A stretch of 37,997 nucleotides of DNA from a virus. The stretch lies in IMG/VR virus record IMGVR_UViG_3300010885_024818, positions 1 through 37,997 of that record; one strand, given 5' to 3'. Shown piece by piece: positions 5,024-37,589 of this stretch (position 1 is the first letter of the stretch; each line of letters starts with the position of its first letter). The translations under genes and the position numbers were made by a program. A model generated the notes under the pieces. The model saw only the letters and a program-made list of their open reading frames with translations. It ran no database searches and was not told the origin of the DNA.

Positions 5024-7567
5024 GTGGCTAGTTCAAATATCGCCGACGCCTACTATCGTCGCTCGGCAGCATTAGCGAAAGGCACCGCGCAACGCGTACA
5101 ACACATCTGGAAGCAGAAGATCGGCACCGCTGATCCGGCGGGCGACTTCTGGACTGGCGGTGTCGGCGAGGAACTCGCGCAGACCATCTCGGTGGGCCAG
5201 TTCGCGGCAGCACAAACAGCCGGGGACTATGTGGATTCAGTCGCACTAGACGCCGGTCTAGACGGCTCACCGCTCACTGTTGACGCTCGCGCATTCGCTG
5301 GACTTACTGACGCGGGCGGCTCTTTGAAGAGTGCTCTCTATCAAGGTCTACTGCAACAGGTTGCCGACATGGCAGCAGGACGTAACCGGGTGGAAGCACA
5401 GAGCGCGGCTCTCGGTCGTGCTGTGCTGCTCGGCGGGAATGAGACGGCGCTCGCATCGCGTAACGCGGAAGCGGCAGCAATCGGCGCCCACCCGAAGTTC
5501 GGCGGATACTTTAGACAACTCACCCCGCCATCCTGTGATCGTTGCGTCGTCCTCGCGGGCAAGTGGTATCACTGGAATGCCGGATTCTTGCGGCATCCGT
5601 ACTGCGACTGTATTCACGTTCCGATAGAGGCAGCAGATACGACAGGTGCTCCGGCGCTGTTCTCACCGGAAGGCTATTTCGCGGCACTGTCGCGGGCGGA
5701 ACAGGACAAGCAGTTCGGCTTAGCAGCAGCGGAAGCGATCCGTAACGGTGCCGACATGGGCCGCGTGATTAACGCCTCACAATCGACCACTATCGCCGGT
5801 ATCTATAAGGGCGGTAAAAAGGGCTACATATACGGCCAGAAGGCTATCGGCGGACGCCGGATGCGTGGCACTCCCACGACGCTAGGTGTCGGCGACATTA
5901 TGCGCCTAGCCGGTGGCGATAAAGAGAAGTTTCGACAACTGCTAGCACAGCACGGCTACATGGTGTCGCGCATATTCACACCGCAACCATTCACACCGGG
6001 TAAGCCGTGGGACTGGGCGAAGATCGACGCGGCAGCGGGGCGCATCACTGTTGTGCCTAAGACATGGCAAGAGTCGTGGCGTACTGAAATAGACGGTGTA
6101 CCGGCTGATCGTCACGCATTCGGGAAGATCAGTTACATACCGGATGATCTCAAACTGATGATAGACACACAGGCGCAACTAGAACGCGATCTACCGTCTG
6201 TCGTTGCGGCACTACCAAACGGGTTGAGCGCAGAGAAACTGTGGGCGTCGTTACCGGCGGAGACGCGGCGACGATTCGATCATCTAGGTCTAGGGCTTGA
6301 TGATCTCGTCTCGCAAGTTGAAGTGTTCGGGCAGGAGAACGTGAAGGCCGCACTAGATGCGCTACTCAGTGACTCCGGCTCATACCTGACGAACCGTGTA
6401 GCACACATAGCAAAAGATGCCCCCTACGATTCGGCTACCGCTGCTGAACATCTGGCGGCAACGATCCGCGCCGGAGATGTGCTGTCTACTGAACTGGACA
6501 GGCGCATTCAGGCTCGCGTCGTATCGGAGGGTCTGACCTTTGATACGTCGGCTATCGCACGTTACGACGCGATGACAGCGGCTATCGCCAAGTATGACGA
6601 ACTACCCGCGATACGGACGGCTGTCGCTGATGCGAAGGCGCAAGGATTCGACATAACGGCGAAAGACTTAGCGGAGCACGCTCGCATCATTTCTCTCACT
6701 GATGGCGGGTGGGCAGCAGCACGCGCCCTACCTGATGCTGAACTTCTAGCACGTTGCGACCGGCGCGGGTGGCCTCACTCGGTGATCGACGTACTACGCG
6801 ATCCGGCGACAGAGAGAAATATGGCGGCCCGTGCCGCACAGAAGGACATGATCGTAGAAGTATCGAAAGTGAAAGAGGCTATCAAGTACGGGCGCGGCTT
6901 ATGTTCTGCTGGAGATTATGCGCGGCTGCAACGTGAAGAGACGCTGAAGATTCTCAGTGAAATACGCGAAATGGGCGGGGGACGCTTCCCCGGTTATAGC
7001 GTGAAGAGCGGTGTCGCTCACGATCTACTGGACTACGCGTTCGGCTCGTATCCGTCAGAATGGAACACTGCTGTCCATGACGGTATCGGTCGTATCGACG
7101 TGAAGTACGGTCGGGATATTCGCGGCTACAACGCTGACAATGGCGCGACGATTCGCATCGGAGGCACGGTGCGAGGTGTTGACCAGATCGGAATATACGG
7201 TAGTTCGGCGGAGGCTACGGCTGTCCATGAGGTAGGTCACTCTATGGAGGAAGTTATCGCCGGTCTGAAAGAGGCAGAGTGGGCGTTCATTGAAAGCCGC
7301 CGCACCTCCGAAACGGTGGAGAGTCTCGGTAAAGGTATGGAACGGGAAATGTATTTCCCCGGCCCGTGGCGTGAGAACTATACGGGTAAGGATTACAATA
7401 GAAGAGGGCAAGCAGCGTGGACACAATCACGCGAAGTGTTCACTACAGGTGTTGAGTCTCTACTCTCAGGCTCGCGCCATTTCGTCGGTACTACAGATGC
7501 CGCCATCGAACTAGGTTTCGATGATGAACTCCGCTCATTCATCCTAGGGGTGCTAAGTGGTTTCTAA
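5024..7567 (+). CDS. MuF-type minor head protein fused to a zincin-like domain
   Basis: An 847-residue protein, GTG start at 5024 after GGAGGCGG. Residues 1-250 look like the MuF/minor head module, including the Cys-rich segment C171xxC174 ... C194xC196. This module normally binds the portal inside the capsid and may be ejected with DNA. The remaining ~600 residues are an extension: a long helical middle and, near the C-terminus, HEVGH at 735-739, the zinc-binding HExxH signature of zincin metallopeptidases. E804 or E811 downstream could be a third ligand. Fusions of MuF to a C-terminal enzyme are the hallmark of MuF polymorphic toxins of temperate phages; an ejected protease or an internal prohead protease are both possible. 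No separate prohead protease gene is evident. The next gene overlaps its end. Confidence 0.85.
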   Translation: MASSNIADAYYRRSAALAKGTAQRVQHIWKQKIGTADPAGDFWTGGVGEELAQTISVGQFAAAQTAGDYVDSVALDAGLDGSPLTVDARAFAGLTDAGGSLKSALYQGLLQQVADMAAGRNRVEAQSAALGRAVLLGGNETALASRNAEAAAIGAHPKFGGYFRQLTPPSCDRCVVLAGKWYHWNAGFLRHPYCDCIHVPIEAADTTGAPALFSPEGYFAALSRAEQDKQFGLAAAEAIRNGADMGRVINASQSTTIAGIYKGGKKGYIYGQKAIGGRRMRGTPTTLGVGDIMRLAGGDKEKFRQLLAQHGYMVSRIFTPQPFTPGKPWDWAKIDAAAGRITVVPKTWQESWRTEIDGVPADRHAFGKISYIPDDLKLMIDTQAQLERDLPSVVAALPNGLSAEKLWASLPAETRRRFDHLGLGLDDLVSQVEVFGQENVKAALDALLSDSGSYLTNRVAHIAKDAPYDSATAAEHLAATIRAGDVLSTELDRRIQARVVSEGLTFDTSAIARYDAMTAAIAKYDELPAIRTAVADAKAQGFDITAKDLAEHARIISLTDGGWAAARALPDAELLARCDRRGWPHSVIDVLRDPATERNMAARAAQKDMIVEVSKVKEAIKYGRGLCSAGDYARLQREETLKILSEIREMGGGRFPGYSVKSGVAHDLLDYAFGSYPSEWNTAVHDGIGRIDVKYGRDIRGYNADNGATIRIGGTVRGVDQIGIYGSSAEATAVHEVGHSMEEVIAGLKEAEWAFIESRRTSETVESLGKGMEREMYFPGPWRENYTGKDYNRRGQAAWTQSREVFTTGVESLLSGSRHFVGTTDAAIELGFDDELRSFILGVLSGF

Positions 7568-21765: not shown

Positions 21766-22473
21766 TCATTCGCTGATCCCTAGCGACTTGCGGGCGGCGT
21801 CTAGACCACTCGTCCGCGCCCGTTGCACGGCGGAGCGGGACATCTCAACTTCCTCCGATATTTCGCCGTCGCTCAGTGGCCGGTAGGAGTCGAACGCGTA
21901 GGCCAGTCGCACGACGCGACGTTGTGTGTCGTCCATCGCTCCTAGTGCTTGACGGCTCATCACCTGATCGTCGATGGAGTCGTAGAGGTCGTTCGTGTCT
22001 GCCGGTTCGGCTAGCCCTAACGGCAACTCTTCCCGCGTGACAGCCGCGTGAATGGCGCTAAACGTCTCACGCGTCATCCCATGTTCTTGAGCAGAGATGG
22101 AGGAACGATTCACGTCTCCATCGCAGGCGCGAAGGATCGCCCAATAGCGGGTTAGGGTGCGGGCTGGTATCTGAATATGTCCGGCGCTGGATGCGGCCCC
22201 GGTCAACTCTTCTAACATGTAGCCGATCACGATGGCGGCCAGTCGGTCATACTTGGCCGGATCGTAGGCGGCTATGGCGGTGAGGATTCCTAGCCGCGCT
22301 GTCTGGAGGGCGTCCTCCGCGTCCAGTGTGCTCCCGAATCGGTTCGCGGCAGCGCGTGCAGCATTGTCGTAGGCGGCGAGTAACTGTTCGGTGGCCGCAT
22401 GGTCACCGTTCTGTGCAGCAGCGATCAGGGCGCCCTCTGCGGCGGCGTCGGGGATGCGTGGTAGATGGGACAT
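21766..22473 (-). CDS. sigma-70-like transcription factor
   Basis: 235 residues, ATG at 22473 after GGAGGAAAC. Residues 12-75 resemble sigma region 2 (AAQNGDHAATEQLLAAYDNAARAAANRF, then DAEDALQTARLGILTAIAAYDP, the core-binding and -10-recognising helices). Residues 178-232 resemble region 4 (DDTQRRVVRLAYAF, then a helix-turn-helix PLSDGEISEEVEMSRSAVQRAR), which would contact a -35 element. The linker (99-165) resembles region 3 only weakly. It could redirect host RNA polymerase to the repeated phage promoters in the right arm; this is inference. Sequences upstream of the gene include an exact copy of the 15-bp core of those promoters. Confidence 0.85.
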   Translation of the reverse strand: MSHLPRIPDAAAEGALIAAAQNGDHAATEQLLAAYDNAARAAANRFGSTLDAEDALQTARLGILTAIAAYDPAKYDRLAAIVIGYMLEELTGAASSAGHIQIPARTLTRYWAILRACDGDVNRSSISAQEHGMTRETFSAIHAAVTREELPLGLAEPADTNDLYDSIDDQVMSRQALGAMDDTQRRVVRLAYAFDSYRPLSDGEISEEVEMSRSAVQRARTSGLDAARKSLGISE

Positions 22474-22502
22474 GTTTCCTCCAGTGGTAGGTGTTTAGCG
22501 TG

Positions 22503-22523
22503 AGTCGTCTAACGGGTCTAGAC
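22503..22523. promoter_or_regulatory. operator-like site upstream of the sigma-like gene
   Basis: AGTCGTCTAACGGGT (22503-22517, + strand) is identical to 34771-34785 in a right-arm promoter and is followed by the palindrome GTCTAGAC (22516-22523), which also occurs next to the right-arm promoters. Here it lies 30-50 bp upstream of the sigma-like gene in the opposite orientation. It may be an operator bound by a shared regulator, or an antisense promoter. Confidence 0.5.
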
Positions 22524-34523: not shown

Positions 34524-34683
34524 GCCGACCCCGGCGGCATGGCTGATCGCGGTCGCGGTGTTACTGATCCTGCCGGAGCATTACGTCCGGCGGTATCTCC
34601 AGACTCGGCGTGCTGCTCGCCCTTGTGGTAGGGGGCGGGTAGTACGCCGTTCGGGTGTCATTCGGCTTAGATACTTGCGCTAG
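34513..34683 (+). CDS. small basic membrane protein, TTG start
   Basis: A 56-residue frame from TTG at 34513 (11-nt overlap with the previous gene). It has a hydrophobic segment (WLIAVAVLLILP, about 10-21) followed by a very basic tail (RRYLQTRRAARP, then RGRVVRRSG). Its TAG lies inside the first right-arm promoter repeat, as do the stops of two later genes. The uncommon start and lack of a strong ribosome site lower confidence. Confidence 0.45.
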   Translation: MKVKPTPAAWLIAVAVLLILPEHYVRRYLQTRRAARPCGRGRVVRRSGVIRLRYLR

Positions 34684-34703
34684 TCGTCTGGCGGGAGTAA
34701 ATT
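34675..34703 (+). promoter_or_regulatory. right-arm promoter element, copy 1 (no leader ATG)
   Basis: TTGCGC (34675-34680), a 17-nt spacer with AGTCGTCTGGCGGG and TAAATT (34698-34703). Unlike the other four copies no ATG follows 6 nt downstream; the only nearby frame is a six-codon one from 34712. It may drive an untranslated leader or be a decayed copy. Confidence 0.6.
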
Positions 34704-34763
34704 AGTGTTTGATGCCTAAAAACATTTATTAGACCAAACGGGGGACATGGTGTGTCTAGACGC

Positions 34764-34799
34764 TTGCGTTAGTCGTCTAACGGGTGCTACGTTCTCTAC
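34764..34799 (+). promoter_or_regulatory. right-arm leaderless promoter, copy 2
   Basis: TTGCGT (34764-34769), 18-nt spacer, TACGTT (34788-34793), then exactly 6 nt to the ATG at 34800. A GTCTAGAC palindrome precedes it (34753-34760). The expected transcription start, 7 nt after the -10 box, is the A of the ATG. Confidence 0.75.
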
Positions 34800-35066
34800 A
34801 TGAGCACTTCACCTACCACCGACAAGGGAGTCACCATGAGCAATAACACAGCGACCGGCCCAAAGGTAGCCGCCCGCCTACGCGCCGCCGGTATACCTGC
34901 TAAGACGACACGCTGCACTTCCACAGGTAAGTCAGTATTCATCTACTGCCAGACGGCGGTAGTAGACGCTGTGGTAGACGCGCTTAATGCTGCTGGATGG
35001 GATTACGAGAAGCGGTCAGAACACCTAGTAATTGTCACTAGCACCATCTGGGACGGTGCCCGATGA
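34800..35066 (+). CDS. accessory protein with MSTSPTT leader, unknown function
   Basis: 88 residues from the leaderless ATG at 34800; a second in-frame ATG at 34836 has AAGGGAG upstream and would give 76 residues. Both starts are probably used or one is regulatory. The body is a small alpha/beta domain (GPKVAARLRAAGIPAKTTRC, KSVFIYCQTAVVDAVVDALNAAGWDYEK, EHLVIVTSTIW), like a small nucleic-acid or ligand-binding fold, not identified. Coupled to the SprT-like gene by ATGA. Confidence 0.75.
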   Translation: MSTSPTTDKGVTMSNNTATGPKVAARLRAAGIPAKTTRCTSTGKSVFIYCQTAVVDAVVDALNAAGWDYEKRSEHLVIVTSTIWDGAR

Positions 35067-35647
35067 CCGCCCGCAAGGCCGCCCGCTATGCCACGCGTGA
35101 CGAGTGGCTAGCGGCAGCGGTGGAGGCGCTCCGCCCCCTGTTCGTGGAGCAGGGCGCCACCATCCCGGCAGTCCGCGTCTCCTGCGGGTGGCCCGGTGGG
35201 TCGGGTCGCAAGACGGGCAGGATCGGCGAATGTTGGCCGACCTCGCTCGCATCGGACAAGGTGGCTCAGGTGTTCATCTCACCAGTGCTTAACGATCCGG
35301 CCCACATCCTCGCCACCCTCACGCATGAACTGGTACACGCTGTCGATGACTGCAAGTCAGGCCACAAGGGCTACTTCCGTACCCTCGCTACCGCTCTCGG
35401 CTTAGAGGGCAAGATGACGGCCACGACGGTGAACGCCGCGTTGGCTCTACGTCTCGCCGCTATCGCCCTGAAACTGGGCACCTATGAGCATGGCGCATTG
35501 AAGGCGCCCGCCGCTGGCGCCGGTAAGGGGCGGATGCGGAAGTGCGCGTGTGGCCGGTGCGGTTTCATCATCTACACGACGACTAAATGGATCGAACAGT
35601 ACGGCGAGTGGGACTGCCCGTGCGGCGGGTACATCTACCCGGCTTAG
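35063..35647 (+). CDS. SprT-like zinc metallopeptidase
   Basis: 194 residues, ATG at 35063 overlapping the previous stop (ATGA). HELVH at about 92-96 with HAVDD and GHKGYFRTLA after it is the SprT-family zincin signature (the H of GHKG is the third ligand). A C-terminal zinc ribbon (CACGRCG near 157-163 and CPCG near 184-187) matches the family. SprT-like proteins of actinophages are of unknown substrate; cellular relatives cut DNA-bound proteins. It shares its promoter with the gene before it; its stop codon lies in the 59-bp repeat that starts the next unit. Confidence 0.88.
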   Translation: MTARKAARYATRDEWLAAAVEALRPLFVEQGATIPAVRVSCGWPGGSGRKTGRIGECWPTSLASDKVAQVFISPVLNDPAHILATLTHELVHAVDDCKSGHKGYFRTLATALGLEGKMTATTVNAALALRLAAIALKLGTYEHGALKAPAAGAGKGRMRKCACGRCGFIIYTTTKWIEQYGEWDCPCGGYIYPA

Positions 35648-35702
35648 ACCATTCGGGCGACTAGCGCGTCTAGACACTTGCGCTAGTCGTCTGGCGGGTA
35701 TA
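35644..35702 (+). repeat. 59-bp exact repeat, copy A, with 9-bp inverted repeat
   Basis: Identical over 59 bp to 36739-36797. It includes the stop codon of the upstream gene, GACTAGCGC (35659-35667) facing GCGCTAGTC (35680-35688) around a 12-nt loop, the GTCTAGAC palindrome and most of the promoter. The right arm of the dyad overlaps the -35 box. Confidence 0.92.
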
Positions 35703-35712
35703 GATTCTCCCC
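35678..35712 (+). promoter_or_regulatory. right-arm leaderless promoter, copy 3
   Basis: TTGCGC (35678-35683), 17-nt spacer, TAGATT (35701-35706), CTCCCC, then ATG at 35713. The 6-nt distance predicts transcription starting at the ATG. Confidence 0.75.
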
Positions 35713-36198
35713 ATGAGCACTTCACCTACCACTACAGGAGTTACCATGAGTACTGTGACCGCTAAGGGTTTCACCGCCCACACGGGCGACGCTGCCCGCT
35801 ACGCACCCTGCCTCGGCCAGAATCACCACGACGCCGCCAAGATCGGCACCTGTGACGGGTGCGGCCTTGAGGTCGCCAAGACGGAGACGGGACGTATCCT
35901 CAATATCGTCACGCGTGGCGATGTGACCCGTAAGGTGGCCTGCTGGAGCAAGGGCCACGACTGCGACCCTGAGCGGGCCGCATGGTACGCCGCTCACCGC
36001 GCCGAACTGCTCGCCTCTGGTGAACTGGTCAAGGGCCAGACGGTGACCGTCGTCAAGGGCCGGAAGGTGCCCGTAGGCACGACCGGCACTATCGTGTGGG
36101 TCGGTAAGGATTCATGGGATAAGACGCGTGTAGGTATCCGCACCGCTGACGGTGAGATGGTCTACACCGCCGCGAGTAACGTGGAGGTGTCAGCATGA
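35713..36198 (+). CDS. accessory protein with zinc motif and KOW/SH3-like domain
   Basis: 161 residues from the leaderless ATG; an internal in-frame ATG at 35746 has ACAGGAG and would give 150 residues. Residues 30-95 hold CLGQNHHD, CDGCG and CWSKGHDC, a Cys/His-rich metal site. Residues 105-158 look like a KOW/SH3-type beta barrel (GQTVTVVKGRKVPVGTTGTIVWVG, TRVGIRTADGEMVY). It may bind nucleic acid. It ends EVSA with the next ATG overlapping (ATGA). Confidence 0.75.
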   Translation: MSTSPTTTGVTMSTVTAKGFTAHTGDAARYAPCLGQNHHDAAKIGTCDGCGLEVAKTETGRILNIVTRGDVTRKVACWSKGHDCDPERAAWYAAHRAELLASGELVKGQTVTVVKGRKVPVGTTGTIVWVGKDSWDKTRVGIRTADGEMVYTAASNVEVSA

Positions 36199-36416
36199 GT
36201 ATCGACTACGACCTTCAGTTCAAGAGTCTCACGTTTGCCGAAATTGAGCGCGAGGGTGAGAACTGGAAGCGCGAACGTGTGTTCTACGACGCTAGGAAGG
36301 CGTACGAGTCTGCTCGCCGATCAGAGGGGCGCGGCATCGCCGTTGCATTCGCCAAGAATGAGCACGGCACGCACGCTACCGCGTACTACGTCTGGAGCGG
36401 GGAGGTGACCGCATGA
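36195..36416 (+). CDS. small charged accessory protein
   Basis: 73 residues, ATGA-coupled to the gene before and after; GGAGGTG precedes the ATG. The first half is helical and highly charged (FAEIEREGENWKRERVFYDARKAYESARRSEG), the second half has strands (IAVAFAKNEHGTHATAYYVW). It ends in EVTA, whose codons GAGGTGACCGC also serve as ribosome site for the next gene. Unknown function. Confidence 0.72.
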   Translation: MSIDYDLQFKSLTFAEIEREGENWKRERVFYDARKAYESARRSEGRGIAVAFAKNEHGTHATAYYVWSGEVTA

Positions 36417-36742
36417 GCCTAAAGGTGTCGGTAGTGAAGGTAGGCGCCCCTCTGGGCCGCTATGGCGCTATGTATCAGGTGTCATGGACGGACAGCGCGG
36501 GCCAGTTCAATAAGGTAAGCCTACGCGGGTACGGGAACGCTCACAGTTACGCGAAACTGATTCGCCGCAAAGCACGCGAGCAGGCGAGCGACTCTCTGAA
36601 CGTCCGCCAAACTCACGGCACCGTCGATCCGGCAGCGCCGCTCCCTCCCGCTGAGTGCGCTCAGTGCGGGGAGGAGATGGGCACGCTAGTGCGCGGGGCA
36701 GACGGAGCGTTCCGCTGTGTGGCGTGCGCGTATGCCCGTTAG
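36413..36742 (+). CDS. accessory protein with C-terminal zinc ribbon
   Basis: 109 residues, ATG at 36413 within ATGA and GAGGTGA upstream. The N-terminal half is beta-rich and basic (LKVSVVKVGAPLGRYGAMYQVSW, HSYAKLIRRKAREQ); the C-terminus carries CAQCGEEM and CVACAY (two CxxC pairs spaced for a zinc ribbon). Unknown function; nucleic-acid binding is possible. Its stop codon is the start of the second 59-bp repeat. Confidence 0.74.
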   Translation: MSLKVSVVKVGAPLGRYGAMYQVSWTDSAGQFNKVSLRGYGNAHSYAKLIRRKAREQASDSLNVRQTHGTVDPAAPLPPAECAQCGEEMGTLVRGADGAFRCVACAYAR

Positions 36743-36797
36743 ACCATTCGGGCGACTAGCGCGTCTAGACACTTGCGCTAGTCGTCTGGCGGGTATA
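36739..36797 (+). repeat. 59-bp exact repeat, copy B, with 9-bp inverted repeat
   Basis: Identical to 35644-35702. GACTAGCGC (36754-36762) and GCGCTAGTC (36775-36783) are the dyad arms. The match ends just inside the -10 box. Confidence 0.92.
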
Positions 36798-36807
36798 CGT
36801 TCTCTAC
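36773..36807 (+). promoter_or_regulatory. right-arm leaderless promoter, copy 4
   Basis: TTGCGC (36773-36778), 17-nt spacer, TACGTT (36796-36801), CTCTAC, then ATG at 36808. Confidence 0.75.
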
Positions 36808-37134
36808 ATGAGCACTTCACCTACCACTAAGGGAGTTACCGTGAACCGTCTAAAGTTTGAGAAGAGCGACCTAGGCTGGAACCGTTCGTACGCACGCGGC
36901 GAGACCTGCTCGTACGTCATTCAGCGTCGGCCAGAGCACAGCGGCGGCTACTACGTCACCGTGTTCGCTGTTGACCTGAGCATCGCTGCTGAATCATGGA
37001 CGAACAGTAAGCGTCTTGCCGTTGCCTACGCGAATCAGTACGAGGCTCTGACGGATGAGTTCAAGGGCAGCGAACATGGACACATGTCCCGCGACACGGT
37101 GGCTTACCGTAACGCGTGCGCGGTGACCGCATGA
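36808..37134 (+). CDS. accessory protein with MSTSPTT leader, unknown function
   Basis: 108 residues from the leaderless ATG; the internal start is a GTG at 36841 with AAGGGAG, giving 97 residues. The body is a small alpha/beta domain (YVIQRRPEHSGGYYVTVFAVDLS, then helix RLAVAYANQYEAL). No motif recognised. It ends AVTA, with GGTGACCGC leading into the next ATG (ATGA). Confidence 0.74.
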   Translation: MSTSPTTKGVTVNRLKFEKSDLGWNRSYARGETCSYVIQRRPEHSGGYYVTVFAVDLSIAAESWTNSKRLAVAYANQYEALTDEFKGSEHGHMSRDTVAYRNACAVTA

Positions 37135-37319
37135 CCGCCGCCTCGCGTCCTGCGCGCGCTGTGGTGCGTTCTGCGGGGCTACAGATGGGATGGACGGTGA
37201 CGTGGACGCACCCGATAGAGGGGGAGCAGTTCTACTACTCGCGGTCGTTTGAAGAGGCGGAGCGGGTCGCTAATTCGGTGAACACGCTGTTAGACCAAGA
37301 GAGTGAACCTACCGTCTAG
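37131..37319 (+). CDS. small basic accessory protein
   Basis: 62 residues, ATG at 37131 inside the ATGA overlap; a frame start at 37116 is rejected because the ribosome-site junction GGTGACCGCATGA recurs at this point in other genes. It resembles a small strand-helix unit (GWTVTWTHPIEGEQFYYSRSFEEAERVANSVNTLL), a layout seen in small phage proteins without known function. Its stop codon lies in the upstream edge of promoter copy 5. Confidence 0.72.
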   Translation: MTAASRPARAVVRSAGLQMGWTVTWTHPIEGEQFYYSRSFEEAERVANSVNTLLDQESEPTV

Positions 37320-37323
37320 ACAC

Positions 37324-37358
37324 TTGCGCGAGTCGTCTAACGCGAGTACGTTCTCCAT
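37324..37358 (+). promoter_or_regulatory. right-arm leaderless promoter, copy 5
   Basis: TTGCGC (37324-37329), 17-nt spacer, TACGTT (37347-37352), CTCCAT, then ATG at 37359. It lacks the upstream GACTAGCGC arm found in copies 3 and 4 but keeps GTCTAGAC (37315-37322). Confidence 0.73.
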
Positions 37359-37589
37359 ATGAGCACATCACCTACCACTACAGGAGTCCAGATGAACGTC
37401 ACAGACCGCATCTACATCCCCACCGGGAATATCGTTACAGGTACTCGCTTCCTGCACCTAGGGCGCGTAGTGGAGGCGGCGGAGAATGTACGCCGCTTAG
37501 GCTTGCGTACCGGCTCTGTCGTTCTACTTACGGACGGCACAGTAGCCGCCCTCCACTCTTCTAAGGTTGCCCTAGAGGTGACCGCATGA
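37359..37589 (+). CDS. accessory protein with MSTSPTT leader, unknown function
   Basis: 76 residues from the leaderless ATG; an internal ATG at 37392 with ACAGGAG would give 65 residues. The body looks like a small beta barrel (DRIYIPTGNIVTGTRF, TGSVVLLTDGTVAAL). It ends KVALEVTA with GAGGTGACCGC before the next ATG (ATGA). No family recognised. Confidence 0.74.
   Translation: MSTSPTTTGVQMNVTDRIYIPTGNIVTGTRFLHLGRVVEAAENVRRLGLRTGSVVLLTDGTVAALHSSKVALEVTA

Follow-up and report, generated by a model that had tools for sequence, protein, structure and literature searches.

The window analysed here, a stretch of 37,997 nt that is the entire 38-kb IMG/VR virus record IMGVR_UViG_3300010885_024818, carries towards its right end five promoter-like elements; these elements, an ATG spacing that is fixed across a phage group, a recurring palindrome and in-frame starts led by a Shine–Dalgarno (SD) sequence are all seen directly in the DNA. 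The elements are best explained as copies of a promoter class of that phage group, in which a −35 hexamer TTGCGY, a spacer of 17–18 nt and a −10 hexamer TAnnnT would direct transcription from a position (+1) 7 nt past the −10 hexamer, usually an A, and in which a putative operator palindrome CGYWAG-N4-CTWRCG would be built into the −35/spacer region. Because the palindrome lies there, a repressor bound to it would obstruct RNA polymerase, leaving the right-end operons silent in the lysogen; upon derepression, copies 2–5 would yield leaderless mRNAs that begin directly with the AUG of MSTSPTT.... Since the same mRNAs would carry an in-frame SD-led start 33–36 nt further on, there are probably two starts per gene in this phage (a leaderless AUG and an SD-led AUG/GUG), which would give proteins differing by 11–12 N-terminal residues. 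Promoter activity, the exact +1, the use of each start and the binding of a repressor are what we infer from this arrangement, and we regard the whole model, an operator-bearing promoter class with leaderless mRNAs and probable dual starts, as fairly likely. The five copies are:

34675–34703, + strand: copy 1, −35 TTGCGC, spacer 17 nt, −10 TAAATT; palindrome 34678–34693; a 6-codon open reading frame (ORF) from an ATG 8 nt on, no in-frame leaderless gene
34764–34793, + strand: copy 2, −35 TTGCGT, spacer 18 nt, −10 TACGTT; palindrome 34767–34782, a perfect 6-4-6
35678–35706, + strand: copy 3, −35 TTGCGC, spacer 17 nt, −10 TAGATT; palindrome 35681–35696
36773–36801, + strand: copy 4, −35 TTGCGC, spacer 17 nt, −10 TACGTT; palindrome 36776–36791
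37324–37352, + strand: copy 5, −35 TTGCGC, spacer 17 nt, −10 TACGTT; palindrome 37327–37342

The original prediction, made from the letters of the window, had placed TTGCGY-N17/18-TAnnnT at 34675, 34764, 35678, 36773 and 37324, and all five are present there; the ATG that it put exactly 6 nt past the −10 hexamer in four copies is found in copies 2–5, that of copy 1 lying 8 nt on. The window has five matches to TTGCG-N17/18-TAnnnT on its + strand and none on its − strand, versus 1.25 for both strands in shuffled sequences. Around 34704–34763, copy 1 is followed by its 6-codon ORF and then, 89 bp downstream, by copy 2, an order that reads as tandem promoters ahead of one operon.

The relatives compared were Arthrobacter cluster AZ phages, Microbacterium cluster EH phages and IMG/VR contigs (their loci are given L numbers). 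The promoter family had been predicted to be specific to this phage; instead, the same class, defined in this analysis as TTGCGN-N17/18-TAnnnT, is common to a large phage group, in which it is enriched over shuffles and placed at gene starts (127 distinct promoters in relatives). Each relative carries 3–10 elements on the + strand, against 0–0.35 expected from shuffles, and among loci fetched solely by similarity of a sigma-like protein the element was present in 14 of 16 (38 distinct promoters). An Arthrobacter phage with no detected homologue of that protein, Isolde, has one element versus 0.8 expected. TTGCG makes up 52 of about 60 matches to TTGnn-17/18-TAnnnT in EH loci and 32 of 35 in AZ loci, with TTGAC among none of them.

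The position of the start codon is equally regular. An ATG stands 6 nt past the −10 hexamer in 30 of the 127 promoters and 7 nt past it in 22, an SD-led start lies 25–54 nt on in 59, and 16 have neither; AZ promoters are SD-led and EH promoters are mostly leaderless without an SD sequence. When EH loci were scanned on the + strand for TTG-N17/18-TAnnnT followed by an ATG at a distance of 2–13 nt, the distance was 6 in 21 cases and 7 in 19, and no other distance occurred. Each of the 52 leaderless-type ATGs of the relatives begins an ORF of 52 codons or more; among these ORFs are those for SprT proteases (Zeta1847, L041) and, in L041, one of 483 aa. Related small proteins (xxPHRhTKADL; MTDPxxxxPRITKxDL) begin at the leaderless-position ATG in several phages. 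In the SD-led promoters of relatives, an A is found at +7 or +8 past the −10 hexamer in 56 of 59, so that +1 is probably that A, as judged indirectly. Thus, promoter-like elements whose geometry would put +1 on the A of an ATG, as originally proposed, are recurrent (52 of 127), and the reading of the five copies as promoters, of which four would be leaderless, is plausible and now backed by independent phages. For leaderless initiation in mycobacteria, an AUG or GUG at +1 is both needed and enough, with ATC as the negative control in that work (PMC4633059). Literature searches for leaderless promoters in Arthrobacter or Microbacterium phages had no relevant paper among the matches listed.

Two features of the EH loci bear on how gene starts are called. 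In Zeta1847 (L010), annotated starts (e.g., GTG) at 6402, 7227, 14224, 15119, 16051 and 16517 lie within the promoter or the operator, ahead of the ATG predicted as the leaderless start; these starts are probably wrong, an example of probable errors among the annotated gene starts of the group. EH promoters without a leaderless ATG often have ATC at the predicted +1 (L011 7840 and 15309; L013 7729 and 8057; L015 11316 and 11707; L010 7207), which looks as if a 5′ AUG were avoided in them.

All five copies contain the motif AGTCGTCTRRCG without a mismatch, and its single exact copy elsewhere in the window is at 22503, upstream of a sigma-like gene. The motif had been taken for a spacer motif of the core promoter; it is instead one half of an operator-like dyad, the left arm of which overlaps the −35 hexamer in all five copies. 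The dyad reads CGTTAG-TCGT-CTAACG in copy 2, CGCTAG-TCGT-CTGGCG in copies 1, 3 and 4, and CGCGAG-TCGT-CTAACG in copy 5. Relatives have CGTAAG-TCGT-CTTACG in the same place (L005) and CGTGAG-TCGT-CTCACG (Kalimba), and EH phages have CGYAAG-N4-CTTRCG within the promoter or just upstream. In the window, there are two exact palindromes versus 0.07 expected and eight sites with at most one mismatch to CGYWAGNNNNCTWRCG versus 1.6 expected; with the same tolerance, EH phages have 6–12 sites versus 0.3–0.5 expected, and AZ phages are more mixed (0–7). The exact −35/palindrome string TTGCGYTAGTCGTCTRRCG had a sole other IMG/VR match, L006, which was set aside as an apparent chance match, its sequence looking unrelated. 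The palindrome also recurs at the sigma-like gene:

22499–22514, − strand: sigma-gene palindrome CGTTAGACGACTCACG, adjoining the octamer GTCTAGAC at 22516–22523, upstream of the sigma-like gene
21766–22473, − strand: P0001, a sigma-70-family protein of 235 aa, conserved in the AZ/EH relatives compared

About 30–60 nt ahead of the sigma gene, 13 of the 19 sigma-bearing phages of the group have a site that agrees with the palindrome at 11 or 12 of 12 positions; none was found there in Albright (L024). Because the 6-4-6 form recurs in relatives, also ahead of this conserved gene, the palindrome is probably a repressor operator, and its placement across the RNA polymerase site, as with the operator OR of mycobacteriophage BPs, argues for the same reading. 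Two observations weigh against it: covariation between the arms is weak (37 versus 28.7 ± 3.1 at one pair, the other pair not being significant) and was rejected as proof of the dyad, and no repressor gene was identified in the contig. The latter recalls the published description of AZ and EH phages as temperate and without an identifiable repressor, with lysogens of Powerpuff being stable and homoimmune (PMC8758107). The palindrome is offered here as the candidate operator of the missing repressor of this group.

The leaderless reading of copies 2–5 has to be weighed against a second set of starts in the same predicted transcripts, where ATG1 denotes the predicted leaderless start and ATG2 or GTG2 the SD-led start further downstream:

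34800–34838, + strand: copy 2 start region, ATG1 at 34800, SD AAGGGAG at 34824–34830, in-frame ATG2 at 34836
35713–35748, + strand: copy 3 start region, ATG1 at 35713, SD AGGAG at 35736–35740, in-frame ATG2 at 35746
36808–36843, + strand: copy 4 start region, ATG1 at 36808, SD AAGGGAG at 36829–36835, in-frame GTG2 at 36841
37359–37394, + strand: copy 5 start region, ATG1 at 37359, SD AGGAG at 37382–37386, in-frame ATG2 at 37392
22471–22493, − strand: sigma-gene leader CACCTACCACT-GGAGGA-AAC-ATG, the leader motif as in copies 2–5, with an SD sequence

In all of copies 2–5, a second start with a good SD sequence is thus found in frame inside the predicted leaderless ORF, 33 nt in (36 in copy 2), so that the window combines both designs, a leaderless-type ATG and an SD-led start, on one predicted mRNA. 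In the stretch scanned, no second SD start of this kind follows any of the 52 leaderless-type promoters of relatives. Of the predicted leaderless initiation, the part that stands is the ATG 6 nt past the −10 hexamer in copies 2–5, which would place +1 on the ATG in a geometry that recurs in relatives, while copy 1 is not leaderless. Several points count against it. Because the in-frame SD start sits at the AZ distance from the −10 hexamer, a reading with an SD-led or a dual start has to be taken seriously as an alternative. In its SD-only form, transcripts would begin at or near ATG1, the true gene starts would be the SD-led ATG or GTG 33–36 nt on, as in cluster AZ, and ATG1 would be an incidental change of ACG to ATG in a conserved leader. 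The second start lies 39 nt past the −10 hexamer in three copies (42 in copy 2), which is the most frequent start distance in cluster AZ and is within the 25–54 nt over which the SD-led starts of relatives (59 promoters) are spread; AZ leaders without an ATG (e.g., ACGAGCAAGGCACACCTACCCAGGAGGACAAAATG of Emotion) resemble the leader of the window, with ACG replacing ATG1; and the sigma gene shares CACCTACCACT with copies 2–5, followed by GGAGG and ATG, with no upstream ATG1. On account of the ACG and of the second start at the commonest AZ distance, ATG1 could be incidental. Moreover, copies 2–5 lie within duplicated cassettes of about 110 bp (80–86% identity over 65–110 bp), and therefore the 6-nt rule in them is close to one observation rather than four independent ones.

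Nevertheless, the distances from ATG1 to the second start (33, 33, 33 and 36 nt) are all multiples of three with no stop codon between, and 5 of the 8 variable columns in this interval are third codon positions by a hand count, which is a weak indication. In addition, the +7 triplet in the SD-led promoters of relatives is mostly ACG, ACA or ATC, as though an AUG at the 5′ end were tolerated only where it serves as a start, and a 5′ AUG is enough for initiation in mycobacteria (PMC4633059). We regard an SD-only reading as somewhat unlikely. ATG1 is either incidental or used alongside the second start, and the in-frame spacing together with the mostly third-position changes leans weakly towards use of ATG1. 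Leaderless initiation is plausible, but it is probably not the only start in this phage.

It may also be asked which sigma factor reads these promoters. P0001 has Pfam matches to regions 2 and 4 and aligns over regions 2–4, most of the profile, with sigma factors in the PDB (WhiG, 6pfv, E 8e-13; SigB; FliA; SigA); an AlphaFold model of it was discarded as evidence on the fold, the predicted local distance difference test score being 45 and a fold search with it meaningless. Homologues of P0001 are found in Arthrobacter, Microbacterium and Curtobacterium phages, where they are often annotated just as “DNA binding protein.” Given that proteins of this family are present in 17 of 17 aligned phages and that the promoters of these phages are nearly all TTGCG rather than TTGAC, P0001 may read TTGCG; the five copies would then be the regulon of a phage sigma factor, not targets of the host housekeeping sigma factor, and the palindrome would be secondary. 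However, Albright, which has a sigma homologue but neither an annotated integrase nor TTGCG promoters, speaks against a simple connection, and Kalimba has two TTGCG promoters only. The −10 hexamer and the spacing also look like those of ordinary housekeeping-sigma promoters, and the specificity of P0001 is not confidently readable from its protein sequence. We consider a P0001 regulon unlikely as an explanation of the five copies.

A dispersed octamer accompanies these promoters. Like the dyad and the SD-led second starts, its copies next to the −35 hexamers were missing from the original prediction. Among all octamers in the window, the palindromic GTCTAGAC is the most strongly over-represented (15 versus 1.03 expected):

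3861, 3936, 5256, 11883, 16463, 19627, 20143, 21799, 22516, 24708, 28377, 34754, 35668, 36763 and 37314: positions of GTCTAGAC in the window
34754–34761 (copy 2), 35668–35675 (copy 3), 36763–36770 (copy 4) and 37314–37321 (copy 5): GTCTAGAC just upstream of the −35 hexamer

At copy 5, the TAG within the octamer is the stop codon of the ORF at 37116–37319, and outside the promoters the window copies are mostly inside genes. Counterparts are GTTTACAC in AZ/EH phages and GTTTAAAC in L005, the shared form being GTYTANAC. In Crewmate, GTTTACAC occurs 21 times versus 0.08 expected (14 forward, 7 reverse), and 71% of these sites are within 50 bp of a coding-sequence boundary versus 23% of random positions. 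Short sites in many dispersed copies, in promoters and near gene ends, are also known from cluster A phages such as L5 (PMC9283540); the L5 sites, however, are 13-bp, asymmetric and oriented with transcription (PMC9283540), whereas GTCTAGAC is palindromic and GTTTACAC occurs in both orientations. Because the orientation with transcription is inconsistent and the window copies outside promoters are mostly intragenic, membership of the stoperators is not claimed for the octamer. P0001 is an unlikely binder of GTTTACAC, since phiMiGM15, whose recognition helix is almost the same as that of UtzChips, lacks GTTTACAC, and a search for GTTTACAC as a published phage motif had no relevant paper among the matches listed. 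It is tempting to speculate that the palindrome in the promoter, perhaps together with the GTYTANAC octamer, is the DNA side of the AZ/EH immunity system and gates operons that are leaderless (EH), SD-led (AZ) or dual-start (this phage); we put this forward tentatively, as quite possible.

The repeats might instead be mainly recombination cassettes, serving as shared boundaries for module exchange and promoter-like by descent without shared regulation, as the position of the duplicated ~110-bp blocks between operons and a similar 130-bp duplication with two such promoters in L005 could suggest; this is very improbable, because conservation is confined to the promoter, operator and start geometry in phages that share no megablast-level DNA similarity with the window, and the same spacing is kept ahead of many unrelated genes. 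The duplication in L005 (9611–9740 and 10435–10564, 76% identical, each with the same promoter type and palindrome) suggests that such cassettes have been duplicated repeatedly.

The promoter design with its putative operator is a variation on known phage control logic. In the temperate mycobacteriophage BPs, the palindromic operator OR lies between the −35 and −10 hexamers of the early promoter PR, with more operators dispersed at other promoters (PMC4557955); likewise, a dyad-symmetric site is found between −35 and −10 in all five copies and recurs ahead of the sigma gene. Unlike in BPs, whose 12-bp palindrome CGACATATGTCG is not found in exact form in the window, the left arm here lies over the −35 hexamer, five promoter copies stand in one arm, an ATG is placed at the predicted +1 and no repressor was identified. 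Cluster O phages (Corndog) are similar in that transcription is predicted to start on the first base of a start codon and that palindromes, there of 17 bp, are dispersed over the genome, but only three such promoters, SigA-like and with no described spacer operator, have been reported from them, their palindrome is different and they have no integrase (PMC4351075). The ESAS and SAS elements (start-associated repeats) of cluster K are similar in combining a repeated promoter with inverted repeats at gene starts (PMC11373665). The SAS 13-mer is not in the window, where its best match has three mismatches. Clusters AZ and EH (PMC8758107) share the promoter class, the operator format and the sigma, SprT, primase and polymerase genes, and the window differs from them in having both starts on one predicted mRNA and GTCTAGAC instead of GTTTACAC. 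The main interest is that the question of the missing AZ/EH repressor becomes testable, as a defined multi-copy candidate operator sequence makes it approachable by pull-down. Within the phage group, leaderless, SD-led and dual-start genes that follow one type of promoter can also be compared as they occur in nature.

As for the genome around the promoters, a nucleotide search of the phage collection gave no close DNA relative of the window, and IMG/VR scans with its primase and integrase gave no matches. Its left part holds terminase, portal and head protease genes, followed by a long tape-measure-like ORF; after this, the − strand carries sigma-like, polymerase and primase genes, and then come a serine integrase and the five-promoter region. 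The promoters had been assigned to accessory genes, which is true in part, but the first operon carries an SprT-like protease gene that is present in all AZ/EH relatives compared. With their counterparts in Arthrobacter cluster AZ and Microbacterium cluster EH phages, the polymerase, primase, integrase, SprT-like protease and sigma-like proteins of the window share 27–58% identity.

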